In this document: positions 40,480-59,151 of the stretch, in pieces
How the letters are laid out: each line of letters begins with the position of its first letter
Numbering within the stretch: the stretch's first letter is position 1
Origin: a virus
IMG/VR virus record: IMGVR_UViG_3300020195_000410
Location: 1-64,000 of that record
Length of the DNA: 64,000 nt
Reading direction: 5' to 3' (one strand)
Notes under the pieces: model-generated
Told to the model about the DNA's origin: nothing
Database searches by the model: none
The model's input: only the letters and a program-made list of their open reading frames with translations
Program-made: the position numbers and the translations under genes

Positions 40480-43400
40480 CTAATAAGAGAGGATATCATC
40501 ACCTTCGCTTAGTTCGTCTGCTCTTTTCCAAGTTTCATCAGTTAATTTAAACTTGTGCCAAGGTGTGCATTTGACAACAGATCCATCATCCAATGGTATT
40601 TCATAAGTTTGAATTTCTCCATTTACATACAATCTTGTAACATTTTCTATTTCATTGTTTTCGTTTAAAATCAAAAGAGGTTTTTTTAATTCCAGCCATT
40701 CTTTATTCATGTTTTTAATTTCATCAAACGAATATCCTTGGTCTTCAAATATTTCCAAAAGTGTAAATGAGCCTTCAGATGTTTTTATTTTTGTGTTGAA
40801 TTCAAGACATCCTGCTGGCTTAACACATGTGGCACGGGCCGTTGGATTGATGCCGATCTTCAGGGCAATCTCTTCATTGACATCCAAGATCAGTTTGGCC
40901 ATCTTCTGTTGAAGATGTGAATCAAACAGAACGCCGGGATTATCCATCATCCCCGTGATGGAGACGCCTAACAATGCTTCACGGCAGAGAATCTTTCTGG
41001 TTGTTGGTCCGAGATAATCCAGATCAACATATCCAGCTTGACATGTACCAATGATCGCAGCAGCCTTGGATGCAACTGCGTAATCTTCTTCGCTCTTGCA
41101 GTAACGCCCATTGATCTCACAGAGATTGCACGCTTCCCAGCCTGTGGCTCCAGTCTCAATATCGACAGGATACAAACCGATTTCAACGCAATTATGTGCA
41201 TACACGCCATTTGCATCAAACGCATGAACTTCATCAATTGTGCAATCGTAAACTGGCAAACGACCTATCAGTTTTTTGTTGATTATCTTGTCTGTGAATT
41301 TGGATCGGTTTGGAGTTCTAGCATATCCATCAACAATTTGTTGAATTTTTTGTATCTTATCTTTGTTTCGAATTGGAATCATTTTTTGAAATTCTTGGAT
41401 ATTATCACAAGAAATACACAATTCATGAGTTGCTTGACAATGATACAACTTCATTCCACCTTGACCATCAGGCATAAGGCGATCACCTTCTGGATAACGA
41501 TCATTATAAATTTTGGAAAACACTCCAAAACTATTAAGAATGATTTGTAGGTTTTTAAGGTTGTTTTTGTTTATTGATGTTATTCTTAAAGAACAGCCTT
41601 TTTGATGATTTACACAGACTGTGCCATCGGCATCGAAATAGCCTGCCACCAATCCGGCCAAATACCGCCAATCACCAGCCAGTGCTTTTACGTCAAGATG
41701 TTTGCCGTCTTTAAGGCAATTTTTAGACTCAGCAAATTTACTTAACTGTGTAGATTGTAAACAACTATAAACAGAAGAATTTTCTTGTGCGTCCTTATGG
41801 TGTGGCGATCTCCATCCTGCGTTTTCCAACAAAGACAAAGCATCAGACCGATATTCTTCTCTGTTTTCTCCCCACCACTTCATCTCAGATGTGTTATCGA
41901 CTAGATTTCCATCAGAAAGTAAATGCCCTAAACAATAGCCCCTTGCAAAGCTCTCTCGATCTGCTTCAAGCCATTTAACCTTTCGCTCTGTACTTGCACG
42001 CCATTCACCAGAACGATGGTTATGAATCACCACGTCGTCTTCAAATGTAATATCTCCAGATTCCTTCCACCCATCAGTTGTTAACAACTTGTGGTTTGTC
42101 GTCAATTTAAGAGTTCTTCCTGAATCAAACTCTAATTCAATTACATCTTTTACATCAGTTTTCCAAAAACCATTTATTGATGATTTGTGTGGTTTTCCAT
42201 CTACTAAAGCAATGAATTGTTTAGAAATCAAATTCTCTACTAATTGAAGTCCGTCGTGAGTTGATACAACTGTATCAGCCGTAACGCATGGATTTACCAC
42301 GAGTTCTGTGCTATCTGACCAGACGAATCCGGGTTCTCCGAACTCACGAACGTAGCCCATCAACTTCTGGAAATCTTCCTTGCTGGTCTTGCCACGCAAT
42401 AGAAGTGCTGAGTTGTTTGAACGACCACGCTGTGGGTTCTCAATGAACCAATTGCCGATCTTGGCTGTAGCCATCTCTTCATCATCTGGAGAGAACAAGC
42501 AGATTGTGGCCGAACGACGGACGCCGCCAGACAACACGGCATCTGAAGCGTGCATCACGATGTCGTATGCGTCAATTGGACGCAGGGCCTTCTGGCCATT
42601 CATGACACACTTGTTGAGTACATCACGAATCTTCTCCAATGCTCTCATCAACGGTTTTGGGCCGGGAGCCTTGCCAGATGATGAACCCAATGGAGCACCT
42701 TCCGGTCGGATCAAACTGTAATCGAACACAACTTCTGTGCCTTGGTATTCTGGAAACTCTCCGTCCTCAAAATACGCACTCAACAGGACGCCGAGAGAAT
42801 CAGACCAACCCTCAATGGAGTCTGGAATGATGTATACCTTCTTTGTTGTTTGAGATGTTTCTTTTGCCCAAATAGAATCAAATTTTGGCAATTTTGCAAT
42901 GTGATGCTTCTGTACAGAGAAGCCAGTCCCGCAACCGCACAACAATAACCAAAAACACTCTTGAAAGAATCTCGATCGATCACAATATGATGCAATACAA
43001 TTTCCAGTCGGTAATCCAAACGGCAACATGAATGATTGATCATCTTCAACTTCAAGACACCAAACAGAATCAACACGAGAATGTTCGATACTTTCAACAC
43101 GGAATGACTTTGCTGTCTTGCCAAATGCCGTGACGATATTGAATTTAATTGTTATATCTGATCGGAAGCCAAAGTTTGTTTCTTGTCCTGTCAGATCTGT
43201 TTCGGAAACGATATAAACTCCAGCAATTGGAAAACATTTCCTGATGAAATCTACAGATTTCTGCCCAGTAGCTTGGATTGAATCATAAGGCGACAATTTG
43301 CCATGTGATGCACCAACTTTATAACTACGACTCTTTGTCCCATCTGCGGTTAAATAACCACTCACAAACGCTCGTATCATCTCTGGAGAGTCAACGCTTG

Positions 43401-44187
43401 GATCAGGCAAAGTCTTTAGATATTTGCCAGTGTAGGCGATAACATCTCCTTCTAATGAAGCAGAAGAGCTGCTAATAAAACCATGTTCCAAAAATCTGTC
43501 TTCGTATTTTTCTTCTGCACCACACAATCTAACCCCAGACCAACGATGTTCTCCGTTCTGGTCTTTGTAGAGAGTTCCATCGCCATAAGTGTAGCCATAA
43601 CACCAATACAATCTCTCCATTGGATTGGCATTTTCATAAACAAAATCAGAAAATACTGTTGGCCCAAAAGTAAGCTGGTCTTCTTCTTGCAAATTATCAG
43701 TAATTTCTTGATTTTTCAAAATCCAACGATGATTTTTCGTGGCATAAATATCATAAGGATCTCCGCCACGAACAACAGATATCTTATAAAGACAATCTTC
43801 CCCATAACATCTTACAATCGCTTTTTTCCAATTCCCTAAATGAGACATGACAGTGACTTTATCACCATCTTGGAAATCACAAAAACTTTTCACACCTTCA
43901 GATGTAATAAACTCTGTTTCCCTACCCAAACAATTGTAGATTCTGGCATTCTTCTTGAGGATCGGATCACCGCCAAATTGTAAGGCTCTCTGCGAACCAA
44001 GAACCTTGCGTTGTTTCACTTGTTCAAAAGCCCAAGTGATGTCCCGCTCGATTTGCGGATACCTTTTGATGTGCATATCTCGCACACGATCAACAGCCTC
44101 TGCCCACGTTTCTCTTCTTTTCTGTTCCGGCAAGTAGCGGGCGTACTTACTGGCAAATGTGTAATCTTGTAATGCTTTAACCGACAT
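40480..44187 (-). CDS. nrdJ: Ribonucleotide reductase class II, N-terminal part with two inteins and a split-intein N half
   Basis: A 1235-residue precursor. Extein segments are residues 1-85, 397-633 and 1000-1126. They carry ARIYN/CIASYCD, LLCGCGTGFSVQ, SGGVRRSATICLFS, VVNP/CVEIGLYP and ATCVKPAG. Together with the 308-residue C part the spliced enzyme is about 757 residues, like the monomeric adenosylcobalamin-dependent enzyme of Lactobacillus (739). It makes deoxyribonucleotides for phage replication without oxygen need but with host B12. Inteins sit exactly before the redox Cys, the active-site Cys of NPC.E, and the TTS after KPAG. AAGGAC precedes the ATG. Confidence 0.93.
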   Translation of the reverse strand: MSVKALQDYTFASKYARYLPEQKRRETWAEAVDRVRDMHIKRYPQIERDITWAFEQVKQRKVLGSQRALQFGGDPILKKNARIYNCLGRETEFITSEGVKSFCDFQDGDKVTVMSHLGNWKKAIVRCYGEDCLYKISVVRGGDPYDIYATKNHRWILKNQEITDNLQEEDQLTFGPTVFSDFVYENANPMERLYWCYGYTYGDGTLYKDQNGEHRWSGVRLCGAEEKYEDRFLEHGFISSSSASLEGDVIAYTGKYLKTLPDPSVDSPEMIRAFVSGYLTADGTKSRSYKVGASHGKLSPYDSIQATGQKSVDFIRKCFPIAGVYIVSETDLTGQETNFGFRSDITIKFNIVTAFGKTAKSFRVESIEHSRVDSVWCLEVEDDQSFMLPFGLPTGNCIASYCDRSRFFQECFWLLLCGCGTGFSVQKHHIAKLPKFDSIWAKETSQTTKKVYIIPDSIEGWSDSLGVLLSAYFEDGEFPEYQGTEVVFDYSLIRPEGAPLGSSSGKAPGPKPLMRALEKIRDVLNKCVMNGQKALRPIDAYDIVMHASDAVLSGGVRRSATICLFSPDDEEMATAKIGNWFIENPQRGRSNNSALLLRGKTSKEDFQKLMGYVREFGEPGFVWSDSTELVVNPCVTADTVVSTHDGLQLVENLISKQFIALVDGKPHKSSINGFWKTDVKDVIELEFDSGRTLKLTTNHKLLTTDGWKESGDITFEDDVVIHNHRSGEWRASTERKVKWLEADRESFARGYCLGHLLSDGNLVDNTSEMKWWGENREEYRSDALSLLENAGWRSPHHKDAQENSSVYSCLQSTQLSKFAESKNCLKDGKHLDVKALAGDWRYLAGLVAGYFDADGTVCVNHQKGCSLRITSINKNNLKNLQIILNSFGVFSKIYNDRYPEGDRLMPDGQGGMKLYHCQATHELCISCDNIQEFQKMIPIRNKDKIQKIQQIVDGYARTPNRSKFTDKIINKKLIGRLPVYDCTIDEVHAFDANGVYAHNCVEIGLYPVDIETGATGWEACNLCEINGRYCKSEEDYAVASKAAAIIGTCQAGYVDLDYLGPTTRKILCREALLGVSITGMMDNPGVLFDSHLQQKMAKLILDVNEEIALKIGINPTARATCVKPAGCLEFNTKIKTSEGSFTLLEIFEDQGYSFDEIKNMNKEWLELKKPLLILNENNEIENVTRLYVNGEIQTYEIPLDDGSVVKCTPWHKFKLTDETWKRADELSEGDDILSY
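40483..40809 (-). other. Split intein, N-terminal half (109 aa), at KPAG
   Basis: Residues 1127-1235. Starts CLEFNTKIKTSEG and has YEIPLDDGSVVKCTPWHKFKL (block B, TxxH). It ends ELSEGDDILSY at a stop, where a contiguous intein would continue. This is the length of known split-intein N halves. Its partner lies beyond the endonuclease gene. Confidence 0.92.
41191..42288 (-). other. Intein 2 (366 aa) with LAGLIDADG endonuclease, in the NP/C motif
   Basis: Residues 634-999. Starts CVTADTVVSTHDG, has LKLTTNHKLLT (block B), YCLGHLLSDGNL and LVAGYFDADGTV (LAGLIDADG motifs) and ends VHAFDANGVYAHN before CVEIG. Endonuclease and splicing domains both look intact. Confidence 0.92.
43000..43932 (-). other. 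Intein 1 (311 aa) with LAGLIDADG endonuclease, in the YN/C motif
   Basis: Residues 86-396 of the precursor. Starts CLGRETEFITSEG, has block B DIYATKNHRWIL, two LAGLIDADG-like helices (CYGYTYGDGTL and FVSGYLTADGTK) and ends FGLPTGN before Cys. All splicing residues (Cys1, Asn, Cys+1) are present. Confidence 0.92.
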
Positions 44188-50044: not shown

Positions 50045-50141
50045 CTTTTGAAAAGATTCAGAATCCTGTGAACCTTTCCTGAACCAACTGCGTCTATTAT
50101 TCTGTGCGAGCAACGATCTCAAAAATTTTTGAGAATAGGGC

Positions 50142-50170
50142 TTGCAAAATTTGTTCGAGACGACTACTAT
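50142..50170 (+). promoter_or_regulatory. Sigma70-type promoter of the tRNA operon, TTGCAA-17-TACTAT
   Basis: TTGCAA (50142-50147), 17-base spacer, TACTAT (50165-50170). The expected start is near 50177, directly before a GTGAGC/GCTCAC hairpin (50181-50197) that could protect the 5' end. Identical hexamers and spacing to the promoter at 24530. Confidence 0.82.
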
Positions 50171-50221
50171 ATCATTACACGTGAGCGAAGTGCTCACACA
50201 ACGAGAGAAAAAGAGTTCATC

Positions 50222-50278
50222 ATGCGATCCTTGCTAAGTTCATTGTCGAGTCTGTTTTATTCCCTTACAAGGGGATAA
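50222..50278 (+). CDS. Leader peptide of the tRNA operon, rich in Leu/Ser/Phe/Tyr codons
   Basis: An 18-codon frame, MRSLLSSLSSLFYSLTRG, stop TAA 50276-50278. Thirteen of 18 residues are Leu, Ser, Phe or Tyr. Codons used are TCC, TTG, CTA, AGT, TCA, TTG, TCG, AGT, CTG, TTT, TAT, TCC, CTT. These need ten of the eleven anticodons found in the downstream array (only TAA for TTA is missing). It lies between promoter and intrinsic terminator, the layout of amino-acid attenuators such as those of trp, his and leu operons. The ribosome site (AAGAG, 7 bases upstream) is modest. Expression is inferred, not shown. Confidence 0.78.
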   Translation: MRSLLSSLSSLFYSLTRG

Positions 50279-50279
50279 C

Positions 50280-50350
50280 GCAACCGCTATGGACTATGCT
50301 CAGGGAAAAAAGCCCGGCAACCCAAGTGGTTGCCGGGCTTTTTTGTTTTT
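50280..50350 (+). terminator. Attenuator terminator with possible competing stem
   Basis: AGCCCGGCAACC (50311-50322), loop CAAGT, GGTTGCCGGGCT (50328-50339) and a T-run form a strong terminator before the first tRNA. GCAACCGCT at 50280-50288, right after the leader stop, can pair with AGTGGTTGC at 50325-50333 (nine pairs, one G-U) and so compete for the terminator's second arm. A ribosome finishing the leader would cover it; one stalled on an earlier codon would not. Confidence 0.75.
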
Positions 50351-50384
50351 GTCGCTAATGTGAAAGAAGGAAAAGAACGAAGAC

Positions 50385-50458
50385 GGTGATGTAGACCAAT
50401 GGCAGGAGTCGCCAGCATGAGAGGCTGGACAGTGTGGGTTCGAATCCCACCATCACCA
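50385..50458 (+). tRNA. tRNA-Leu(GAG), short variable arm
   Basis: Acceptor GGTGATG/CATCACC, anticodon loop ATGAGAG on stem CCAGC/GCTGG, variable region ACAGT (5 bases), T-arm GTGGG TTCGAAT CCCAC, discriminator A. D-loop AATGGCAGG resembles the type II Leu tRNAs here (AACGGCAGA). Confidence 0.85.
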
Positions 50459-50464
50459 CTAGAT

Positions 50465-50538
50465 GCCCAAGTAGACCAACGGCAGGAGTCGTCAGTTTCA
50501 AAAACTGAACAGTGTGAGTTCGAGTCTCACCTTGGGTA
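50465..50538 (+). tRNA. tRNA-Leu(CAA), short variable arm
   Basis: Acceptor GCCCAAG/CTTGGGT (G-U at the end), anticodon loop TTCAAAA, variable ACAGT, T-arm GTGAG TTCGAGT CTCAC, discriminator A. Confidence 0.85.
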
Positions 50539-50541
50539 TAT

Positions 50542-50615
50542 GGCACCGTAGACCAACGGCAGGAGTCGCCAGCATCAGAGGCTGGATAGTGTGGGTTCGA
50601 ATCCCACCGGTGCTA
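50542..50615 (+). tRNA. tRNA-Leu(CAG), short variable arm
   Basis: Acceptor GGCACCG/CGGTGCT, anticodon loop ATCAGAG, variable ATAGT, T-arm GTGGG TTCGAAT CCCAC, discriminator A. Confidence 0.85.
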
Positions 50616-50626
50616 CTACAAATTTT

Positions 50627-50706
50627 GGAAGTGCTGCTGTGTGGGAACAGGCCGTCGCTGTAACCGACGTGTCTCTGACTAGGGGGTTCGATTCCTCACA
50701 CTTCCA
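50627..50706 (+). tRNA. tRNA-Tyr(GTA) 1
   Basis: Acceptor GGAAGTG/CACTTCC, anticodon loop CTGTAAC on CGTCG/CGACG, long variable arm as expected for bacterial Tyr, T-loop TTCGATT, discriminator A. Confidence 0.85.
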
Positions 50707-50715
50707 CTGATGATT

Positions 50716-50799
50716 GCCCATGTGGTGAAACAGGTAAACGCACATGTTTCAAAAACATGCCTCTTAAGTGAGTTGCAGGTTCGATTCCTGCCATGGGCA
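50716..50799 (+). tRNA. tRNA-Leu(CAA), type II, copy 1
   Basis: Acceptor GCCCATG/CATGGGC, anticodon loop TTCAAAA on CATGT/ACATG, long variable arm (CCTCTTAAGTGAGT), T-loop TTCGATT, discriminator A. Confidence 0.92.
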
Positions 50800-50803
50800 C
50801 TAT

Positions 50804-50891
50804 GGATTAGTAACTCGACCGGCGTCGGGCACTGTTTTGAAAACAGTTGGAGCTATGAGAATAGCTTGGGGATCGACACCTCACTTCTCCG
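50804..50891 (+). tRNA. tRNA-Ser(TGA), aberrant acceptor and T-loop
   Basis: Acceptor GGATTAG/CTTCTCC has two adjacent mismatches. Anticodon loop TTTGAAA on ACTGT/ACAGT, long variable arm, T-loop ATCGACA (A in place of T54), discriminator G. A regular tRNA-Ser(TGA) is at 51472. Confidence 0.7.
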
Positions 50892-50923
50892 CTTGTTGAT
50901 CTTTGACAACTTGGATATGATAC

Positions 50924-50997
50924 GGCACTGTGATGCAATTGGCAGACATCTTCGACTTAAAATCGGGGTTCTGTGGGTTCGATGCCCACCGGTGCTA
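50924..50997 (+). tRNA. tRNA-Leu(TAA), short variable arm
   Basis: Acceptor GGCACTG/CGGTGCT, D-arm ATGCAATTGGCAGACAT as in true Leu tRNAs, anticodon loop CTTAAAA, variable GTTCT (5 bases), T-arm GTGGG TTCGATG CCCAC, discriminator A. Confidence 0.85.
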
Positions 50998-51001
50998 CTT
51001 T

Positions 51002-51086
51002 GGAAGATAAACTGGCTAGGTCGGCCAGCACGGTTTGCTAAACCGTTGGTCCCTTCGGGGATGAGAATCGTGTTCTCTGTCTTCCG
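51002..51086 (+). tRNA. tRNA-Ser(GCT), variant T-loop
   Basis: Acceptor GGAAGAT/GTCTTCC, anticodon loop TTGCTAA on ACGGT/ACCGT, long variable arm, but T-arm GAGA ATCGTGT TCTC, so the TTCRANY loop is lost (A54, T58). Discriminator G. A regular Ser(GCT) is at 53413. Confidence 0.75.
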
Positions 51087-51093
51087 CTTGATT

Positions 51094-51178
51094 GGAGGAA
51101 TAACCTGACAGGCGTCAGGCACCGTTTCGAAAACGGTTGGAGCTATAATGGCTTGGGGTTCGAGACCTCATTCCTCCG
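51094..51178 (+). tRNA. tRNA-Ser(CGA)
   Basis: Acceptor GGAGGAA/TTCCTCC, anticodon loop TTCGAAA on ACCGT/ACGGT, long variable arm, T-loop TTCGAGA, discriminator G. Only CGA copy. Confidence 0.9.
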
Positions 51179-51184
51179 CTTAAT

Positions 51185-51268
51185 GTCCAAGTGGCGTAAT
51201 TGGTAGCCGCAACAGGTTGAGAGCCTGTCGCCGTCATAGGCGTGGAGGTTCGACTCCTCTCTTGGACA
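51185..51268 (+). tRNA. tRNA-Leu(GAG), type II, copy 1
   Basis: Acceptor GTCCAAG/CTTGGAC, anticodon loop TTGAGAG on ACAGG/CCTGT, long variable arm CGCCGTCATAGGCG, T-loop TTCGACT, discriminator A. Confidence 0.92.
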
Positions 51269-51271
51269 CTT

Positions 51272-51358
51272 GGAAGATGAACTGGCTAGGTCGGCCAGCA
51301 CTGCTTGGAAAGCAGTTGGTGCCCTGTGTGGCATGGGAATCGTGTTCTCCGTCTTCCG
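51272..51358 (+). tRNA. tRNA-Ser(GGA), variant T-loop
   Basis: Acceptor GGAAGAT/GTCTTCC, anticodon loop TTGGAAA on ACTGC/GCAGT, long variable arm, T-arm GGGA ATCGTGT TCTC as in Ser(GCT) at 51002, discriminator G. A regular Ser(GGA) is at 51569. Confidence 0.75.
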
Positions 51359-51361
51359 CTT

Positions 51362-51466
51362 GCAACTTGTTCTCCCTAACAACTATGGGACCGGGGGAGC
51401 GTGAATACAGGTTCGAAGTCTGGCCTGCGGCTGCACAAGCTAATGGCGAGTCCCAGACAAGTTGCA
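51362..51466 (+). ncRNA. Structured element A in the tRNA array, not a recognisable tRNA
   Basis: Ends GCAACTTG/CAAGTTGC pair over 8 bp like a long acceptor stem. Inside, TCTCCC pairs with GGGGGA, GGGAC with GTCCC, and TCTGG with CCAGA next to the outer stem. A TTCGAAG loop on CAGG/TCTG is present. At 105 bases it does not fold as a standard tRNA and no coding is evident. Confidence 0.5.
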
Positions 51467-51471
51467 AAATT

Positions 51472-51558
51472 GGAACAATGGCAGAGTGGCTTAATGCACC
51501 GGTCTTGAAAACCGGAGATCTCGCAAGGGGTCCGTGGGTTCAAATCCTACTTGTTCCG
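51472..51558 (+). tRNA. tRNA-Ser(TGA)
   Basis: Acceptor GGAACAA/TTGTTCC, anticodon loop CTTGAAA on CCGGT/ACCGG, long variable arm, T-loop TTCAAAT, discriminator G. Confidence 0.93.
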
Positions 51559-51568
51559 CTGAAAAATT

Positions 51569-51655
51569 GGAGTGATGGCAGAGCGGCTTATTGCACTCGC
51601 TTGGAAAGCGAGAGTCCCCGAAAGGGGACCGGGGATTCGAATTCCTCTCACTCCG
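51569..51655 (+). tRNA. tRNA-Ser(GGA)
   Basis: Acceptor GGAGTGA/TCACTCC, anticodon loop TTGGAAA on CTCGC/GCGAG, variable arm GTCCCCGAAAGGGGAC, T-loop TTCGAAT, discriminator G. Confidence 0.93.
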
Positions 51656-51659
51656 CTTG

Positions 51660-51950
51660 ATGGAATATAACTTTGACAACTTTTTCATAGAAACTGTTGC
51701 CAACTTTACTCGATGCGAATTACCAGATCGAGACCCAGACTTCTTTTCGTTCAGCGGATCGACATACTGGGACTGCGGTGATAAAGTAATACGCTGGAGT
51801 AATCACTGGGGAAAGAACATCAGCACTTGTTGCTGGTATCTGGACTTCAAAGAATTGAAGTTACAGAACTCCTTGGCTGGCTGCTGTTACTACGAAGATT
51901 TTCGACACAAAAGGAATTTACTAGATGGATACGAAAGTAGTTCAGATTGA
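51660..51950 (+). CDS. Small unknown protein, 96 aa
   Basis: Starts at ATG 51660 a few bases after a tRNA-Ser. Aromatic and acidic, with CCWYLDF and GCCYYEDF. It overlaps the next small frame by 26 bases. No family recognised. No ribosome site apart from tRNA trailer bases. Confidence 0.5.
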   Translation: MEYNFDNFFIETVANFTRCELPDRDPDFFSFSGSTYWDCGDKVIRWSNHWGKNISTCCWYLDFKELKLQNSLAGCCYYEDFRHKRNLLDGYESSSD

Positions 51951-52065
51951 GCTTACAGAAAGCGACATCAAACGAATTCGTGCGAACCTTGTAGTAGATT
52001 GTTTTGTCACTCTGGACAATGGCCAAAAGGTACTTGTCAGGATGACTAAAGAGGACAAGAAGTAA
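51925..52065 (+). CDS. Small unknown protein, 46 aa
   Basis: MDTKVVQIELTESDIKRIRANLVVDC... ending MTKEDKK. Protein-like, charged. AAGGAA lies 10 bases upstream. Coupled by overlap with the previous frame. Function unknown. Confidence 0.5.
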   Translation: MDTKVVQIELTESDIKRIRANLVVDCFVTLDNGQKVLVRMTKEDKK

Positions 52066-52122
52066 TGATGAACTGGATTTTGATTCGTGATGGTCCGTGG
52101 ACCTCCTATTCGGAGGTATTTC

Positions 52123-52398
52123 ATGGACATCACAAAGATCTGGTTGTCGCAGAGGAATCTGCGTCGTGCTGGGCAGATCCCGGCAATGATTGAAACTTTG
52201 TGTGAAGGCGGCGTACTGCCACCAATCACACTGGCTCGATGCGAGGATGGAGAAATCCAAGTCGAGGACGGCCACCACCGCTTGACTGCCATTTGGCTGT
52301 CAGGCAGAACTGATCTGGACGATCACGAGTATTTCGTGGTAGAAAAAGATCAGTGGAAGCCAAGAGTCGGAAGACTCTCAGTACAAAAATTGGAATGA
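52123..52398 (+). CDS. ParB/sulfiredoxin-like small protein, 91 aa
   Basis: Start ATG 52123 behind GGAGG. RRAGQIPAMIETLCEGGVLPPITLARCEDGEIQVEDGHHRLTA is the ParB N-terminal nuclease-like fold with the GHHR motif (GxxR in ParB). There is no DNA-binding domain. Such stand-alone domains can be nucleotide-binding switches (CTP in ParB) or nucleases. Its place in the tRNA operon is unusual. Confidence 0.7.
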   Translation: MDITKIWLSQRNLRRAGQIPAMIETLCEGGVLPPITLARCEDGEIQVEDGHHRLTAIWLSGRTDLDDHEYFVVEKDQWKPRVGRLSVQKLE

Positions 52399-52399
52399 C

Positions 52400-52472
52400 G
52401 GGTCGTAAGCTAATCTGGTGAAAGCGATTGCCTGAAGAGCAATAGAGGTTGGCTCGAAACCAACACGACCCA
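52400..52472 (+). tRNA. tRNA-Phe(GAA) 1
   Basis: Acceptor GGGTCGT/ACGACCC, anticodon loop CTGAAGA on ATTGC/GCAAT, T-arm GTTGG CTCGAAA CCAAC, discriminator A. Confidence 0.9.
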
Positions 52473-52474
52473 CT

Positions 52475-52553
52475 GGTTGCTCGATAATAGCTAAGTATCC
52501 CTACTGTCGATTGGTGATGGGGTGAAAACGGCTACCAATCTTGTCGAGCAACC
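52475..52553 (+). ncRNA. Structured element B between two Phe tRNAs
   Basis: A 10-bp outer stem GGTTGCTCGA/TCGAGCAACC and an inner 7-bp stem GATTGGT/ACCAATC around an 18-base segment. It is tRNA-sized (79 bases) but has no T-loop or anticodon arm on either strand. Confidence 0.5.
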
Positions 52554-52558
52554 TTTAT

Positions 52559-52633
52559 GGTCAGTGAGCTAGTACGGTTATTCAGCGTATGCCTGAAGAG
52601 CATAAGAACTCGGTTCGACTCCGAGACTGACCA
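52559..52633 (+). tRNA. tRNA-Phe(GAA) 2
   Basis: Acceptor GGTCAGT/ACTGACC, anticodon loop CTGAAGA on TATGC/GCATA, T-loop TTCGACT on CTCGG/CCGAG, discriminator A. Confidence 0.9.
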
Positions 52634-52849
52634 CTGTGGCTAAATGCCACAAACTTTTCTCGTTCATTTGGAATCACGGTGATTCCTTTTGTCCGCTTCG
52701 GCGGAATGCAAAATGCGAAGTGTGGAACCTTGTAGGGGAAGCATGGGAGAGGAAATACATCATGATTCTTTTCAGACATGAGGAGCGATAATGAAATATC
52801 GACCGCAATTCTTTCCGTAACGCAATAGTGCGTTTTTGGAGAGAACAAC
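52634..52849. other. Gene-free stretch with small hairpins
   Basis: About 215 bases with GGAATCACGGTGATTCC and GTCCGCTTCGGCGGA hairpins and only frames under 10 codons. No tRNA or gene is seen. Confidence 0.5.
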
Positions 52850-53182
52850 ATGGGAAGGTATCGTCAACATCGACGCCCAAGAACAACTCAAGAGCGTCGT
52901 GAGAACGGGAAACGCAACTCCATCGACTTCGATGGATACAAGGTGAAGATCAGAGCAAGCCGCAACATGAGCAATCTTGTTGAAGCTTGGGATGACATCA
53001 ACAGGAGCAGTTCTGAGGATCGCTCTTGGAAGAAGTTCAGGAAAGAACAGTACAGACCAAGAGATGTTCTCGAAGGGAAGACTGTTGGTCAATTGCTGAT
53101 TGAAGGTCTTGAAGAATTCCTTAAAGATCTGAAGTCTGGAATTGATTTGGACACAAAGTATCGAATCACGAGATTCGAGTAG
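52850..53182 (+). CDS. Basic unknown protein, 110 aa
   Basis: ATG 52850 with TTGGAGAG upstream. The N-terminus is very basic (MGRYRQHRRPRTTQERRENGKR), then DGYKVKIRASRNMSNLVEAWDDI and a C-terminal helix. Probable RNA or DNA binder. A GGGCC-GAAA-GGCCC hairpin follows before the next tRNA. Confidence 0.65.
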   Translation: MGRYRQHRRPRTTQERRENGKRNSIDFDGYKVKIRASRNMSNLVEAWDDINRSSSEDRSWKKFRKEQYRPRDVLEGKTVGQLLIEGLEEFLKDLKSGIDLDTKYRITRFE

Positions 53183-53204
53183 GCAGGGGCCGAAAGGCCC
53201 AAAT

Positions 53205-53277
53205 CGGGCGTAAGCAACTGTGGTCAATGCGTCGGTCTGAAAAACCGAAGAATCTGGTTCGATCCCAGAACGTCCGG
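53205..53277 (+). tRNA. tRNA-Phe(GAA) 3, unusual ends
   Basis: Acceptor CGGGCGT/ACGTCCG, anticodon loop CTGAAAA on TCGGT/ACCGA, T-arm TCTGG TTCGATC CCAGA. The C first base and discriminator G are unlike normal Phe tRNAs. Confidence 0.78.
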
Positions 53278-53280
53278 CTT

Positions 53281-53406
53281 GTGAGAATGTAGAACGGATT
53301 ACATCTGGATAAAGCGACTTTTCCGAAAGGATTGGTTTCGAGGCAGGTTCAAATCCCGCCAATCAGGAGCAATCCTGAAAACGTATCTGTTCAATTCTTG
53401 TCTCAC
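53281..53406 (+). ncRNA. Structured element C in the tRNA array
   Basis: Bounded by GTGAGA/TCTCAC. Contains ATGTA/TACAT, GATTGG/CCAATC enclosing a T-arm-like GCAGG TTCAAAT CCCGC, and a CAGGA-GCAA-TCCTG hairpin. 126 bases; not foldable as one standard tRNA. May be a degenerate tRNA pair or a novel RNA. Confidence 0.45.
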
Positions 53407-53412
53407 AAAATT

Positions 53413-53501
53413 GGAAGCGAGTAGAAGAGGCTATCTTACCCGGTTTGCTAAACCGGCAGGCGGTGAATGCCGCCTTGCGAGTTCGACGCTCGCCGCTTCC
53501 G
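53413..53501 (+). tRNA. tRNA-Ser(GCT)
   Basis: Acceptor GGAAGCG/CGCTTCC, anticodon loop TTGCTAA on CCGGT/ACCGG, variable arm GGCGGTGAATGCCGCC, T-arm GCGAG TTCGACG CTCGC, discriminator G. Confidence 0.93.
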
Positions 53502-53513
53502 CTAGGTGATATT

Positions 53514-53765
53514 ATGAGCAAGAAAACTTTTTACAGACAGTGCCGTCTTCAAAGACACAACACCGAAACAGTCAGTTGGATTCCCTCTGAATTCGCCAAA
53601 GTTGGTTGGGTGTTGAGTTTGAAGGACAAAGAAGATTGGACACACGATTGGAAAGTCCTTTCTGCTGGTTCTGAACATGAAGGTAAGCTTGTAGAAAACC
53701 AAGCTCATAATTCAGGAAACATCTGGGAGCCGAGTGCCTTACTTACTACCAGAGGAAACAAGTAA
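53514..53765 (+). CDS. Small unknown protein, 83 aa
   Basis: ATG 53514 with AGGTG upstream. MSKKTFYRQCRLQRHNTETVSWIPSEFAKVGWVLSLKD has the look of a small beta (SH3-like) protein common in phages. It precedes a run of tiny zinc proteins. Function unknown. Confidence 0.65.
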   Translation: MSKKTFYRQCRLQRHNTETVSWIPSEFAKVGWVLSLKDKEDWTHDWKVLSAGSEHEGKLVENQAHNSGNIWEPSALLTTRGNK

Positions 53766-53766
53766 C

Positions 53767-53883
53767 TTGGAACAAGAAATCAAATGTCCTTTTTGTGGTC
53801 GAAAGAAAGCTGTCGTGAAGCAAGATGACTATGTTTATCTCTGCACTCATTGTGACAAGCTGTTCGATCCCAGAGAGGATTAA
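53767..53883 (+). CDS. Zinc-ribbon mini-protein, 38 aa (TTG start)
   Basis: TTG 53767 preceded by GAGGAAAC. CPFCGRK and CTHCDK are 15 residues apart, a classic zinc ribbon. It starts just after the stop of the previous gene. Confidence 0.65.
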
Positions 53884-53896
53884 CAAGGAGGATATC

Positions 53897-53956
53897 ATGC
53901 GATACGAACACGAAGAACAACCGAACGAACAGTCCTGCTTTCGAAACGATGAGTAA
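53897..53956 (+). CDS. Tiny peptide, 19 aa, with strong ribosome site
   Basis: AAGGAGGATATC then [19 protein letters not shown]. The strong site and the overlap of its end with the SEC-C gene suggest a translation-coupling leader rather than a functional protein. Confidence 0.4.
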
Positions 53957-54116
53957 GAGACGTAAAGGTTTCCCATCAGAAACGAAGGTCAAACGTGGCG
54001 TGAGAATCGTTCACGGAACAAAAGAACTATACGAGAAGCTCGGACGTAATGATTTGTGTCCGTGCGGAAGCAACAAGATCTACAAGAAGTGCTGTCTACA
54101 GTCAGGCCGGTTTTGA
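53949..54116 (+). CDS. SEC-C motif zinc protein, 55 aa
   Basis: Ends [19 protein letters not shown], the full SEC-C zinc motif (CxCx8CC) found at the C-terminus of SecA and in many small proteins, where it can bind ribosomes or SecB. The rest is basic. Start at ATG 53949 within the preceding mini-frame. In an operon for translation factors a ribosome-binding role is worth testing. Confidence 0.75.
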
Positions 54117-54178
54117 TGGCGTACTCAGACATGACTTTTTTTAGGGAATAAACTTCCAGAGGGTTTCGGCCCTCAAAT

Positions 54179-54262
54179 GCCGTCGTGGTGTAACTGGTAG
54201 CCACGCTAGACTCAGAATCTGGTGCCCGTAAGGGCGTGGAGGTTCGACTCCTCTCGACGGCA
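54179..54262 (+). tRNA. tRNA-Leu(CAG), type II
   Basis: Acceptor GCCGTCG/CGACGGC, anticodon loop CTCAGAA on CTAGA/TCTGG, variable arm GCCCGTAAGGGC, T-loop TTCGACT, discriminator A. A GAGGG-TTTCGG-CCCTC hairpin is just upstream. Confidence 0.92.
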
Positions 54263-54277
54263 CTTGGAGACAATGTA

Positions 54278-54538
54278 ATGAATGATGTTGAATTCATGGA
54301 TCGAGTTCAGCTAAAAGCCGAAGTTAGAAGACTTCGGCAAGAGCAAACAGAAGTTCGTCAGATAACGCAAGAATGGTTGAATCAGCAAGGACACAATCGT
54401 TGCTGGTATTACCCAGAACTATTTGCTAAACTGGCGGAGACTTTGGGACTTCAAATTACGGTCGATCCGGCTTTGCCGCCGAGACCAGAATTTGAAGAAG
54501 GTTGTCGGAAATTCCAGAACGAGGAATTCGGATCATGA
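54278..54538 (+). CDS. Unknown helical protein, 86 aa
   Basis: ATG 54278 follows the tRNA-Leu. MNDVEFMDRVQLKAEVRRLRQEQTEVRQITQEWL is a coiled coil, then WYYPELFAKLAETLGLQ and a Pro-rich end. Its stop overlaps the next ATG. Function unknown. Confidence 0.65.
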   Translation: MNDVEFMDRVQLKAEVRRLRQEQTEVRQITQEWLNQQGHNRCWYYPELFAKLAETLGLQITVDPALPPRPEFEEGCRKFQNEEFGS

Positions 54539-54708
54539 GAAAGAAATATCGGGACTACTGCATCAGTTGTAGCCCATCGCAGTGTCGGCCTTGCATGGTC
54601 GCTGCGGTGGGAGCAACTTACCATGCAGGAGTCCAAGATGAAACGATGGCACGAAGAGTATTCTCGCACTCACCGAGAATGGAAGAAGCACTACCTTGTT
54701 CATGTTGA
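54535..54708 (+). CDS. Small Cys-rich frame, 57 aa
   Basis: MRKKYRDYCISCSPSQCRPCMV has two Cys pairs and the ATG overlaps the previous stop (ATGA). The C-terminal half overlaps the next gene by 71 bases, which lowers confidence. Confidence 0.4.
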   Translation: MRKKYRDYCISCSPSQCRPCMVAAVGATYHAGVQDETMARRVFSHSPRMEEALPCSC

Positions 54709-54925
54709 AAGCAACATCAACTACAATCGTGATCCCTTCAAGATCGACTGTATTTGTGATCAACAAAAAGGTCGCTTCAGGAAGATCAAGAATTTAGACT
54801 GTGGCGTTCCTCAATGTTGGTTGTGTCACAGCGACAAATTCCCTGTGAGAGAAAAGACAAGAAAAGAACTGATTGCTGATCTCAAGTTGGAAGAAGGAAT
54901 CTCAGAACTGAAGGGAATCGAGTGA
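54638..54925 (+). CDS. Zinc-binding protein, 95 aa
   Basis: ATG 54638 with AGGAG upstream. Basic helix MKRWHEEYSRTHREWKKHYLVH, then DCICDQ and CGVPQCWLCHSDKFPV (Cys/His cluster), then a helical end. Stop overlaps the next ATG by one base. Function unknown. Confidence 0.65.
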   Translation: MKRWHEEYSRTHREWKKHYLVHVESNINYNRDPFKIDCICDQQKGRFRKIKNLDCGVPQCWLCHSDKFPVREKTRKELIADLKLEEGISELKGIE

Positions 54926-55089
54926 TGTCAATCAAATACGTTGTGATGAAGGTGAAAGTATCTGGCGACTTTGAGGTCGCCAGATTTGACACCGAAGAGA
55001 AGGCTGAGGAAAAAGCCAAGAGTCTGGCGTCAGCCGATGTGTCTGGAACTGTTGAGTTCTACATTCGGAAGACATGGACAAACAAATAA
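54925..55089 (+). CDS. Small unknown protein, 54 aa
   Basis: MSIKYVVMKVKVSGDFEVARFDTEEKAEEKAKSL... has a ferredoxin-like beta-alpha-beta look. Overlaps the previous stop (TGATG). Confidence 0.6.
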   Translation: MSIKYVVMKVKVSGDFEVARFDTEEKAEEKAKSLASADVSGTVEFYIRKTWTNK

Positions 55090-55094
55090 CAAAC

Positions 55095-55176
55095 GGGTCG
55101 GTATGCAAGTGGCTAAAGCAGCCAGACTGTAAATCTGGTCTCTCCGAGTTCGGGGGTTCGAATCCCTCCCGGCCCA
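55095..55176 (+). tRNA. tRNA-Tyr(GTA) 2
   Basis: Acceptor GGGTCGG/CCGGCCC, anticodon loop CTGTAAA on CCAGA/TCTGG, long variable arm, T-loop TTCGAAT, discriminator A. Confidence 0.93.
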
Positions 55177-55186
55177 CTGTTTGTAA

Positions 55187-55276
55187 GGGGAAGTCTGCTG
55201 AGTGGGATCAGCACCTTGGGTCGTAACCCAAGGCGTCATTGATCAAGACTAGGAGGTTCAATTCCTCGCTGCCCCA
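55187..55276 (+). tRNA. tRNA-Tyr-like, irregular anticodon loop
   Basis: Acceptor GGGGAAG/CTGCCCC (one mismatch), D-arm like Tyr copy 1, T-loop TTCAATT, long variable arm. The anticodon stem is CCTTGG/CCAAGG with loop GTCGTAAC (8 bases), or 6 bases if the end G-C pairs. GTA is present but the loop is not 7. Confidence 0.65.
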
Positions 55277-55291
55277 TTTGAAAGACATGAA

Positions 55292-55519
55292 ATGAGCAAA
55301 GCATCTGACCTTCTTGACGACTATGTTCTTTTCATTCCTGATTGCTACAAAGCACCATGGACTAAAGTTGGTCCGGGAGGAATGATTGAAAAGATGTCTC
55401 CTGAAAAAAGAGAGATCTTGAAGACTTTGAAGTCAGAAGATTTGCAAAATGTGCGGCCTGATTCGACGTGGATTTATCAAAAGCCACAAGGAAAAGGTCG
55501 CTGGGGAACTAGAAGATAA
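55292..55519 (+). CDS. Small unknown protein, 75 aa
   Basis: MSKASDLLDDYVLFIPDCYKAPWTKVGPGGMIEKM..., basic C-terminus GKGRWGTRR. Start 16 bases after the Tyr-like tRNA. No family recognised. Confidence 0.6.
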   Translation: MSKASDLLDDYVLFIPDCYKAPWTKVGPGGMIEKMSPEKREILKTLKSEDLQNVRPDSTWIYQKPQGKGRWGTRR

Positions 55520-55542
55520 TTGAAGATGTGTAGTCTTCAAAT

Positions 55543-55623
55543 GCTCGTGTGGTGAAACGGCAGACACGCCAGACTTAGGATCTGGTGCCGAAAGGCGTGT
55601 GGGTTCAAGTCCCTCCATGAGCA
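55543..55623 (+). tRNA. tRNA-Leu(TAG), type II
   Basis: Acceptor GCTCGTG/CATGAGC, anticodon loop CTTAGGA on CCAGA/TCTGG, variable arm GCCGAAAGGC, T-loop TTCAAGT, discriminator A. Confidence 0.92.
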
Positions 55624-55700
55624 CTAAGGATTGAACGGCTCCAAAAATTGTACCAACCTTCTTTGTCACAGCAAGGAGGTACAACCAAAAGGATAGTGAG

Positions 55701-56897
<1,197 letters not shown>

Positions 56898-56992
56898 ACC
56901 AATCGAACAAAGACGTTAAAAAGTTGACGATAATTTCAGAGGCGTCATCTACGTTGGCCGAAGTACAAGGCGTCATCTTTGTTCGATTTCAT

Positions 56993-57065
56993 GGCTCGGT
57001 AGGCAAAGGCAGACCACAAACATTTAGAATGTTTGATGCTGTGGGTTCGAGTCCCACCTGAGCTA
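56993..57065 (+). tRNA. tRNA-Leu(TAG), short variable arm
   Basis: Acceptor GGCTCGG/CTGAGCT, anticodon loop TTTAGAA on AAACA/TGTTT, variable GATGCT (5-6 bases), T-arm GTGGG TTCGAGT CCCAC, discriminator A. Confidence 0.85.
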
Positions 57066-57079
57066 CTTTGGAGAAAAAC

Positions 57080-57325
57080 GTGAACTATTTCAACACGATG
57101 ATGTCGCTCAACAACTTGCAAATTTTGTTGAACACATTTCAATTGGGGTTCTTGTACAACGCTCTTGTGCGAAGATTGAGTGTTGTTCCACATCCACCGG
57201 ATACAATTTATCCAGTGATATTGGCGTGTATCGGCATTGTTCTTTACATTCCGCTATTTGTAACAAGACAACAATTGTTGCGTCGAAAGAACAAAGATGA
57301 TACATCACAGATTGGCCACAAATAA
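57080..57325 (+). CDS. Small membrane protein, 81 aa (GTG start)
   Basis: GTG 57080 with GGAG 8 bases upstream. An amphipathic N-terminus, then TIYPVILACIGIVLYIPLFVT as one membrane segment and a basic end. Function unknown. Confidence 0.6.
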   Translation: MNYFNTMMSLNNLQILLNTFQLGFLYNALVRRLSVVPHPPDTIYPVILACIGIVLYIPLFVTRQQLLRRKNKDDTSQIGHK

Positions 57326-57506
57326 CGAACAACATTTTGGGGTCAATGTGAACCATGAAAAGACTCGTGTTTTGCTTCAGCTAGGAGACGGGATGGAGCA
57401 AGTGCGAGTGCAGTTGACGGCAGATGAGGTTGATCAAGTCATCACTCATCTGCAACAACGAAGAGAAGAGATTAGGCCCAGCGAACAGCTTGGCCAAGAA
57501 GATTGA
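57297..57506 (+). CDS. Unknown protein, 69 aa
   Basis: MIHHRLATNNEQHFGVNVNHEKTRVLLQLGDGMEQVRVQL then a helix TADEVDQVITHLQQRREEI. Overlaps the membrane gene by 29 bases; ends just before a tRNA. Confidence 0.6.
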   Translation: MIHHRLATNNEQHFGVNVNHEKTRVLLQLGDGMEQVRVQLTADEVDQVITHLQQRREEIRPSEQLGQED

Positions 57507-57508
57507 TT

Positions 57509-57589
57509 GTCCAAGTGGTGAAATGGCAGACACGCCAGCTTGAGGGGCTGGTGCCGCAAGGTGTGGAGGTTCGAGTCCTCTCTTGGACA
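57509..57589 (+). tRNA. tRNA-Leu(GAG), type II, copy 2
   Basis: Acceptor GTCCAAG/CTTGGAC, anticodon loop TTGAGGG on CCAGC/GCTGG, variable arm, T-loop TTCGAGT, discriminator A. Same acceptor as copy 1 at 51185 but a different body. Confidence 0.92.
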
Positions 57590-57591
57590 CT

Positions 57592-57675
57592 ATGTTGACG
57601 AGTGTGTTGGTACAAGTGGCAGCAAGCCTCATTGGAGTAATTGCATTATATGTCTACCACAACTGGAAGAGATAA
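57592..57675 (+). CDS. Membrane mini-protein, 27 aa
   Basis: MLTSVLVQVAASLIGVIALY then VYHNWKR: one membrane span and a basic end. Starts 3 bases after a tRNA. The short length makes this tentative. Confidence 0.4.
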   Translation: MLTSVLVQVAASLIGVIALYVYHNWKR

Positions 57676-58033
57676 TGGATTGCTTCCATGCGGACATGAA
57701 AAGAAGTATTCCTATTTTCATCCAGCTTTGGTAGGATCTTCTAGGTTTCGCTGTGGCAAGTGCGATGATCCAAACAGGAATACAAGAGCAATGCAAGAAC
57801 TAGAACCAGAACAACAGCAATTGCCAAAGAAACCGTGTGTGATATGCGGAACAGAGTTGGAGTGTGCGGTTCAAGATTGGACCACTTACCAGCCATACAA
57901 GGGTGGTGAAATTCAGTTGTTGTTTGGATATGGCTCTTGCAAGTTTGATCTGAACTTGCATGGCACGGTGTTCCGTGGAATCATCTGTGATGATTGTTCA
58001 GAGAAGTTGGTCCAGAAGATGGACCCAAAATAA
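57650..58033 (+). CDS. Zinc-cluster protein, 127 aa
   Basis: ATG 57650; a TTG at 57641 sits nearer a GGAG. Contains LLPCGHEKKYSYFH..., FRCGKC, CVICGTELEC and IICDDCSEK: two probable zinc sites. Another of the small Cys-rich proteins of this operon. Function unknown. Confidence 0.65.
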   Translation: MSTTTGRDNGLLPCGHEKKYSYFHPALVGSSRFRCGKCDDPNRNTRAMQELEPEQQQLPKKPCVICGTELECAVQDWTTYQPYKGGEIQLLFGYGSCKFDLNLHGTVFRGIICDDCSEKLVQKMDPK

Positions 58034-58036
58034 TCT

Positions 58037-58118
58037 GGCCTCGTGGTGAAACTGGCAGACACGCATGACTCAAAATCATGTGCCGCAAGGCGTGAGGGTT
58101 CGACTCCCTCCGAGGCCA
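58037..58118 (+). tRNA. tRNA-Leu(CAA), type II, copy 2
   Basis: Acceptor GGCCTCG/CGAGGCC, anticodon loop CTCAAAA on CATGA/TCATG, variable arm GCCGCAAGGC, T-loop TTCGACT, discriminator A. Followed by CC rather than CT. Confidence 0.93.
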
Positions 58119-58121
58119 CCT

Positions 58122-58433
58122 ATGAGTAAAATCGAAATCCCCGGATTCTATCGCTTCCTCAGAAGGCGAACAAGAACCAAAATTCTCAACAAGCAACGTC
58201 ATGGTTATCGAGGCGTCAAGCAACGATATTCTGTTTGGCGAGCGGAATACAACCAGAAATGGGAAAAGTCCGACAAAGATCTTGTTGAGAGAATCTGCCG
58301 TGACAACGAACTGAATCTCTGTGATTACTTCGTTGGAGACGAAAACGAAAGAACTCCTTGGGAGAAGACACTAAATAAACTCAGATCCGCTGGGTTCGGA
58401 TTGTCCAAGTCACCGATCAAGGAGTTATCATGA
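58122..58433 (+). CDS. Basic unknown protein, 103 aa
   Basis: ATG 58122, 3 bases after a tRNA. MSKIEIPGFYRFLRRRTRTKILNKQRHGYRG is strongly basic, with a charged helical rest. Stop overlaps the next ATG. Possible RNA binder. Confidence 0.65.
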   Translation: MSKIEIPGFYRFLRRRTRTKILNKQRHGYRGVKQRYSVWRAEYNQKWEKSDKDLVERICRDNELNLCDYFVGDENERTPWEKTLNKLRSAGFGLSKSPIKELS

Positions 58434-58525
58434 TGAAAGTTTTAGATGAATGTATGTGTGCGGTTTGTCAGGCAGAGCGTCAGTTAATCGAACTGATGAA
58501 ACAGCTAGAAGCAACAAATAGCTAA
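58430..58525 (+). CDS. Cys-pair mini-protein, 31 aa
   Basis: AAGGAG 5 bases upstream. MMKVLDECMCAVCQAERQLI then a helix. CMCAVC may bind metal. Overlaps the preceding gene by 4 bases (ATGA). Confidence 0.5.
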   Translation: MMKVLDECMCAVCQAERQLIELMKQLEATNS

Positions 58526-58528
58526 TAA

Positions 58529-58738
58529 ATGACAGAAGAATGTCCCAAAAGAGAATGTTTCCATTGGATTCCTCCCGGTGGAGCCGCAGACATGTCTAGG
58601 AAGACTCACAAATCCGTTCAGGATGCGTTCAAAGACGGCAAGTGGGTGAGTTTCCCAGAAGGCGGTTGTTCATGCACATGGGGGTCATGCAATCGAATTG
58701 ACCCAGCTAGTGAAGATGATTTTTTTGAACCATGCTAA
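58529..58738 (+). CDS. Cys-rich protein, 69 aa
   Basis: MTEECPKRECFHWIPPGG, then SFPEGGCSCTWGSCNRI and a terminal Cys. Starts 3 bases after the previous stop and ends just before the last tRNA. Probable metal binder; function unknown. Confidence 0.6.
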   Translation: MTEECPKRECFHWIPPGGAADMSRKTHKSVQDAFKDGKWVSFPEGGCSCTWGSCNRIDPASEDDFFEPC

Positions 58739-58740
58739 AT

Positions 58741-58824
58741 GGCCTCGTGGCGTAATTGGTAGCCGCACAGAGCTTAAGCCTCTGTATCCTTGGTGATGTG
58801 AGGGTTCGACTCCCTCCGAGGCCA
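58741..58824 (+). tRNA. tRNA-Leu(TAA), type II
   Basis: Acceptor GGCCTCG/CGAGGCC, anticodon loop CTTAAGC on CAGAG/CTCTG, variable arm, T-loop TTCGACT, discriminator A. Last tRNA of the array. Confidence 0.92.
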
Positions 58825-58826
58825 CC

Positions 58827-58855
58827 TTGAATAAAAGTCCACTTTCCATTATCAT
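58827..58855 (+). promoter_or_regulatory. Sigma70-type promoter TTGAAT-17-TATCAT
   Basis: TTGAAT (58827-58832), 17-base spacer, TATCAT (58850-58855), 26 bases before the lipoprotein ATG. It separates the lipoprotein from the tRNA operon. Confidence 0.6.
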
Positions 58856-58881
58856 GGCTCCAACCTTTAGGAGAAATGATC

Positions 58882-59151
58882 ATGAGAAAGTGGACTTTTT
58901 TGTTGCTGGTGTTAGCACTCGCTGGATGCACAGAGTCAGCCAAACCGGTCGAGAAGATGAATTCCAAGAACGGCTGGCTGGTCGAACTGTGCTTTGAGAA
59001 GGATGACTTCAAAGTCTATCGCTTCAGCGATGGCCATTCAGAATGGCGGTACTATGTTGTCCCAGTGGGGGAAATGATCGACCATGTGACGACTTCAGAC
59101 GATGAAGGAAATGAGACGCATCATCCACGGAACACAAGAACTCTCAAGTAA
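58882..59151 (+). CDS. Small lipoprotein, 89 aa
   Basis: MRKWTFLLLVLALAGC: signal with lipobox LAGC, so the protein is lipidated at Cys16. The mature part (VELCFEKDDFKVYRFSDGHSEWRYYVVP) is a small beta domain. T4-like phages use surface lipoproteins for superinfection exclusion or host envelope changes; role here not known. AGGAG precedes; ATG 58876 is an alternative. Confidence 0.75.
   Translation: MRKWTFLLLVLALAGCTESAKPVEKMNSKNGWLVELCFEKDDFKVYRFSDGHSEWRYYVVPVGEMIDHVTTSDDEGNETHHPRNTRTLK

Follow-up and report, generated by a model that had tools for sequence, protein, structure and literature searches.

We propose that the tRNA genes of a huge phage are very probably controlled by a ribosome-mediated transcription attenuator of the trp/his type, a conclusion that we draw without any experiment and that builds on an observed gene order, an observed conservation of the leader and of its alternative RNA pairings, and an observed diversity of leader codons. 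The stretch of DNA that we analyzed, referred to here as the window, spans positions 1-64000 of a virus record that is 65,971 bases long, and its genes include a contractile tail sheath, a baseplate hub, ribonucleotide reductase and SbcCD. Its closest relative in annotated collections is LR756511.1, an uncultured 595-kb phage, with identities of 44% for SbcD and 66% for a CTP-synthase-like protein (gene at 36425-38041), and the window most likely represents part of a huge-phage genome. Matches of the window to actinophage DNA were set aside as ordinary tRNA similarity. Note also that relatives match the 1235-aa ribonucleotide reductase (40480-44187) in separated pieces, which suggests that it contains an intein.

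The features of the locus are collected in Table 1. An initial sequence-only reading of this DNA had described the promoter, the 18-codon leader frame and, within it, 13 codons for Leu, Ser, Phe or Tyr, and all three were recovered in our analysis, the last by codon count. The leader codons run ATG CGA TCC TTG CTA AGT TCA TTG TCG AGT CTG TTT TAT TCC CTT ACA AGG GGA TAA and, as had also been claimed, sample 10 of the 11 isoacceptor classes, the sole missing class being UAA. The terminator reported there is present as well, with a stem of 17 bp and not of 12 bp. The RNA from leader to terminator folds far better than its shuffles (z of -5.5), and the small hairpin near the 5' end has a counterpart in phage L011 (GTGGGCAAAGTGCTCAC). 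Since 17 other phages show this layout too, it is confirmed, as judged from the sequences, that the arrangement in the window is not due to chance.

Table 1. Features of the leader locus and of the tRNA operon in the window
Feature	Position	Strand	Basis or remark
sigma70-type promoter, TTGCAA-17-TACTAT	50142..50170	+	sequence
small hairpin GTGAGCGAAGTGCTCAC near the 5' end of the transcript	50181..50197	+	RNA fold; role unassigned
leader ORF MRSLLSSLSSLFYSLTRG and stop, putative control codons	50222..50278	+	sequence; 17 other phages have homologous leaders
region 1, early leader codons predicted to pair with region 2	50228..50260	+	duplex prediction, permutation, synonymous shuffle
region 2, at and past the stop codon, predicted partner of region 1 or 3	50274..50305	+	duplex prediction
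region 3, 5' arm of the terminator; with the loop, putative antiterminator partner (50313-50327)	50306..50322	+	stem search, duplex permutation
intrinsic terminator (regions 3:4), 17 bp, 5-nt loop, T-run	50306..50344	+	sequence, RNA fold
tRNA array, Leu/Ser/Phe/Tyr only, 11 anticodons	50385..58826	+	21 by ARAGORN, some 25 if weak ones are counted
phage elongation factor Tu, 398 aa, within the array	55701..56897	+	Pfam, NCBIfam

In the mechanism that we infer, RNA polymerase would start at the sigma70 promoter and a ribosome would follow on the leader. With all eleven Leu/Ser/Phe/Tyr isoacceptors charged, the ribosome would reach the stop codon and cover region 2, whereupon the terminator 3:4 would form and the array would be off. 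Were any one of these aminoacyl-tRNAs scarce, the ribosome would stall on its codon and cover region 1, the 2:3 antiterminator would form, and transcription would enter the tRNAs and, in several phages, a gene for EF-Tu or a LeuRS-like protein. Without translation, 1:2 would be expected to form, and with it the terminator by default. Because nearly every isoacceptor is sampled about once, the leader would work as an OR-gate on tRNA supply and not as a sensor of a single amino acid, and the products of the operon would close a feedback loop. Stalling, read-through, feedback and the inducing signal are all inferences, as there are no transcript, ribosome-profiling or reporter data; attenuation would, moreover, require coupled transcription and translation, for which there are no data in these phages. 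The attenuator features that can be judged from the DNA, namely the leader ORF, the control codons, the terminator and the mutually exclusive pairings, are all present, and the switch by ribosome position is supported by computation only.

Relatives were sought with queries blind to the leader, namely ribonucleotide reductase, SbcC and SbcD, and in addition through LR756511. This gave 17 further distinct huge-phage records with a tRNA array restricted to Leu, Ser, Tyr and, mostly, Phe, usually located upstream of SbcD on the opposite strand; the exception is L180, with single stray tRNA calls (Thr, Pro) located upstream of the leader. The case that had been named as refuting the sequence-only reading, a homologous phage bearing the array and lacking a leader rich in these codons, was sought among them: in 17 of the 17, a short Leu/Ser/Phe/Tyr-rich ORF and then a strong terminator stand directly before the array. 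The SbcD proteins of these phages are only 38-77% identical to that of the window, and the leaders are therefore not copies of each other. In fact, residues and codons are reshuffled among them and the composition is kept (for example, MKTLFSSYLLSLSLLSQGT, MTFSFSSSLLYLYSLSREHDTVMD, MRTLLSSLFSLSLLSSLYSDGIGGSV, MNFFSLSLSLFSSSSLFSYSAEGGCTV and MLLSLLSLFSFSSLLYSNLSIGGIS), the share of Leu/Ser/Phe/Tyr codons being 54-76% over the 18 phages. The leader ORF is found in all 18, with a Shine-Dalgarno-like site in about 14 and a weak one in the window, L011, L089 and L129. A promoter of the form TTGNAA/TTGACA-16/17-TANNNT lies 5' of most of the leaders (identified by eye in L011, L102 and L124), and no clear promoter was seen upstream of that of L107. 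The RNA after the leader folds with energies of -24 to -44 kcal/mol, and the strong terminator hairpin that follows every leader ends in a T-run in all except L124, where the T-run is poor.

How specific is this arrangement? A strict scan, requiring at least 13 Leu/Ser/Phe/Tyr codons at a share of at least 54% and then a stem of at least 12 bp, was applied to the fetched strand sequence (6.28 Mb, counting redundant copies) and returned no hits other than 12 of the 18 leaders; the six leaders outside it have interior mismatches or larger loops in the terminator, or a composition slightly below the limit. Scans of viral contigs with the 224-aa ORF of the window, and with its SbcD alone, gave no relatives, nor did a scan of genome contigs, and leader DNA patterns used as queries returned only phages already identified. 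In LR756511 (L079-L083) and G021 (L178), the tRNAs are segregated by amino acid, those for the remaining amino acids lying in separate operons with almost no Leu, Ser or Tyr. These separate operons provide an internal control: no leader of the Leu/Ser/Phe/Tyr type was found before them, and a search of the remaining runs of tRNA genes in the fetched DNA, those of G016 among them, found none either. In L083, a promoter leads straight into the first tRNA-like gene. At 14500-15450 of L083 (minus strand), a repeated element, GGATACGAAAGTGTCCC...CTTACAAAC, interrupts several tRNA-like genes and may represent small introns or a processing element. Stop-codon-reading tRNAs (cta, tta) were called in L079, L178 and L183.

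The pairings were assessed by comparing duplex energies between regions of the same phage (own) with those between regions of different phages (cross), over the 18 phages and with 5000 permutations. Helix 1:2, joining the early codons to the segment around the stop codon, has an energy of -19.0 kcal/mol for own versus -15.3 kcal/mol for cross pairs (0/5000), and helix 2:3, joining the latter segment to the 5' arm of the terminator, -12.4 versus -10.6 kcal/mol (4/5000). For three control pairings among these regions, no own-versus-cross effect was seen, which argues against an artefact of base composition. What is more, of the 13 region-2 bases that pair in the antiterminator, 9 also belong to the 1:2 helix, and the two helices therefore exclude each other. 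Helix 1:2 is weakened when synonymous codons are permuted within the leaders (-261.7, sd 14.3, as against -341.9 observed); in L011, L129, L145 and L182, it does not surpass the synonymous shuffles, and under full folding it is weak in L139, L143 and L145. The effect of a ribosome was approximated by folding the nascent RNA without the 3' arm of the terminator, using a simple ribosome of +/-15 nt and equilibrium energies. In such folds, the mean number of antiterminator pairs is 13.6 with the ribosome on the Leu/Ser/Phe/Tyr codons versus 4.6 with the ribosome at the stop, with the same sign in 18 of 18 phages; for the window alone the contrast is modest (approximately 11 versus 8 pairs). The block of Leu/Ser/Phe/Tyr codons ends approximately where stalling stops helping (rho of 0.61, p of 0.007), and the leader tail, free of such codons, acts as a spacer. 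The full-length terminator is always the more stable structure, so the decision must be a kinetic one.

Is the choice of codons also unusual? Each peptide was kept and synonymous codons were drawn at random in 20,000 simulations. The 18 leaders contain 142 distinct Leu and Ser isoacceptor classes, as compared with an expectation of 117.5 (sd 4.0) for uniform codons and of 108.6 (sd 4.0) for the phages' own codon usage; 142 was reached in 0 of 20,000 simulations. Note that the leaders share ancestry, so that the P-values of both these simulations and the permutations are optimistic, although the leaders are largely unalignable. In L089, all 11 classes are covered with 13 Leu/Ser/Phe/Tyr codons. 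The window and L011 differ at 7 nucleotides in codons 3-15, and every one of these differences stays within the four amino acids, as against 44% of random changes. The leaders also follow the arrays: in L139, whose array is limited to tRNAs for Tyr, Ser-UGA and Phe, the leader has one Leu codon (4-8 in all others), 10 Ser and 3 Tyr codons, and in LR756511, L105 and L111, whose arrays are without Phe, the leaders have no Phe codon beyond codon 4. The match is imperfect, however: these last three leaders do have one early Phe codon, and L145 has seven Ser codons and no Ser tRNA found, where its sister L143 has four. Taken with the position of the codons and the RNA pairings, their diversity fits and supports the trp-type attenuation proposed in the sequence-only reading, the function itself being inferred.

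As to the operon itself, ARAGORN called 21 tRNAs in the window array, every one of them for Leu, Ser, Phe or Tyr, in agreement with the claim that the array holds these alone, with 11 anticodons. A total of 25 genes had been given, and this is plausible: Rfam at a relaxed threshold adds two (50804-50890 and 55187-55275), and Ser-like genes near 51001-51089 and 51273-51360 were added by eye. A tRNA-like sequence at 51361-51470, lying between tRNAs and rearranged in appearance, has no ARAGORN call. Four Leu tRNAs (50385-50459, 50464-50539, 50542-50616 and 50924-50998) are only approximately 75 nt long, with a short variable loop in place of the long arm normal for Leu, and their type of D-arm sequence, GTAGACCAACGGCAGGAGTCG, is found again in Leu tRNAs on six further viral contigs. 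The EF-Tu encoded in the window array is full-length. An EF-Tu gene also lies within the arrays of 6 of the 17 other phages (L011, L102, L107, L143, L145 and L180), and in all seven phages found to have EF-Tu it is positioned within this array. In two arrays, those of L104 and L124, a LeuRS-like gene stands among the tRNAs in place of EF-Tu. An array together with EF-Tu, which delivers tRNA, or with a LeuRS-like enzyme, which charges it, fits a response to a shortage of charged tRNA. Short LeuRS-like proteins without much of the LeuRS middle are encoded within Leu/Ser/Tyr/Phe arrays in L185 (9397-10692, 431 aa) and G008 (112891-114204), and in G001 (24728-24919, minus strand; the start of L011), a 96-aa frame in the array beside EF-Tu matches just the C-terminal end of TyrRS.

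Could the same observations be accounted for differently? The sequence-only reading had placed the antiterminator elsewhere, in a nine-pair competitor joining 50280-50288 to the terminator loop and 3' arm (50325-50333). This duplex does exist, at -18.5 kcal/mol, and has equivalents of 6-7 bp in L089 and L132; however, over the 18 phages, pairings of this class are not own-specific (480/5000), whereas 2:3 is, and we consider it unlikely that it is the antiterminator and do not regard it as a conserved one. The conserved antiterminator is, as predicted from the duplexes, the segment around the stop codon paired with the 5' arm of the terminator (50286-50305 with 50313-50327 in the window). One could also imagine an attenuator that depends on translation but senses its general speed, or the availability of EF-Tu or ribosomes, with the leader codons merely matching the array. 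Indeed, slow movement of a ribosome through the leader, whatever its cause, would be enough to open the operon, and seven of the phages have EF-Tu in it. It is not obvious, however, why such a device would have its codons limited to the amino acids of the array and ending where stalling no longer matters, and we see only a slim chance that it is correct.

Two further explanations dispense with tRNA charging altogether. The ORF might encode a functional small hydrophobic peptide with a terminator of its own, the array downstream being transcribed independently; the peptides are in fact hydrophobic or Ser-rich, most have a Shine-Dalgarno site, and a strong terminator closes the ORF. Against this stand the lack of positional sequence conservation beyond composition, the synonymous-level excess of distinct isoacceptors and constraint on RNA pairing, the near disappearance of Leu codons from the leader where the array has no Leu tRNA, and the fact that, on the scanned strands, the ORF was never found away from a Leu/Ser/Tyr/Phe array, and we hold this explanation to be very improbable. 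The general layout of leader ORF and terminator is shared, too, by attenuators in which a nascent peptide of the TnaC or Erm kind halts translation when a small molecule or drug is present, and drug-inducible leaders are known. Arrest peptides need conserved residues, however, and across these leaders no conserved peptide sequence was met, only a composition: residues shuffle within Leu/Ser/Phe/Tyr and isoacceptor coverage is kept, which makes such an arrest barely credible here. Finally, a T-box riboswitch was rejected, as Rfam gave no match to this class in 50100-59500, also when the threshold was relaxed.

Attenuation of the trp/his type, the reading that we prefer, shares with the enterobacterial trp, his, leu, thr, ilv and pheA systems the promoter, the leader ORF with control codons, the mutually exclusive pairings 1:2, 2:3 and 3:4, and a terminator before the structural genes. 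Unlike in those operons, the output consists not of biosynthetic enzymes but of tRNA genes, joined in some phages by EF-Tu or a LeuRS-like gene, and the leader covers four amino acids at once. In bacteria, leader-peptide attenuation also precedes pheST, encoding phenylalanyl-tRNA synthetase, which resembles the phage operon in that a gene for charged-tRNA supply is attenuated by a leader peptide, and differs from it in that a synthetase is controlled, for one amino acid and in a bacterium, and not the tRNAs themselves. T-box riboswitches likewise respond to tRNA charging and control termination in tRNA-charging operons, but they bind uncharged tRNA directly, without a leader peptide. Codon usage is strongly biased in known attenuation leaders (Elf & Ehrenberg, PMC1183508); by comparison, the codons of the phage leaders are unusually diverse. 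Phage tRNAs are known to counter tRNA-cleaving host defences (PMC10264068, PMC11555353), presumably by replacing depleted host tRNAs; we found no sensing or regulation of the phage tRNA array in PMC10264068, whereas in the present operon supply appears to be coupled to shortage. Huge phages of the same kind, LR756511 included, carry many tRNAs, translation factors and synthetases (PMC7162821), and the main text of that study makes no mention of attenuation or leaders.

A more far-reaching version, which we advance only tentatively and would not call probable, is that loss of any single tRNA species opens an emergency operon resupplying all of them, together with EF-Tu or a LeuRS-like protein in some phages, the trigger being, for example, an anticodon nuclease or another defence acting on tRNAs with a long variable arm. 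In bacteria, such an arm is found in the tRNAs for Leu, Ser and Tyr. An attack on these tRNAs is a possible trigger, but nothing here shows such an attack, and Phe does not fit. Vertebrate Schlafen nucleases are reported to cut tRNAs of this long-armed type (PMC13245857). The more cautious interpretation is that the operon simply regulates tRNA supply autogenously. If the bolder one were true, the attenuator would be a phage-encoded sensor of, and counter-measure against, tRNA-depleting immunity.

What is new here is that the controlled genes are tRNAs, that the genome is that of a phage, and that the leader surveys isoacceptors. We know of no other tRNA operon under leader-peptide control of this kind, and a literature search for attenuated tRNA operons or arrays returned nothing relevant. 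If our reading is true, this would be, as far as the searched literature shows, the first known case of a tRNA operon attenuated through a leader peptide and also of a leader that samples isoacceptors instead of favouring one codon. It would also predict that transcription and translation are coupled in these giant phages. Why phages carry tRNA arrays, and when these are expressed, is an old open question, and here the sequence itself would state the condition: expression of the array is expected when its own tRNAs are short. The ideas of codon compensation and of anti-defence would thereby become directly testable in a reporter.
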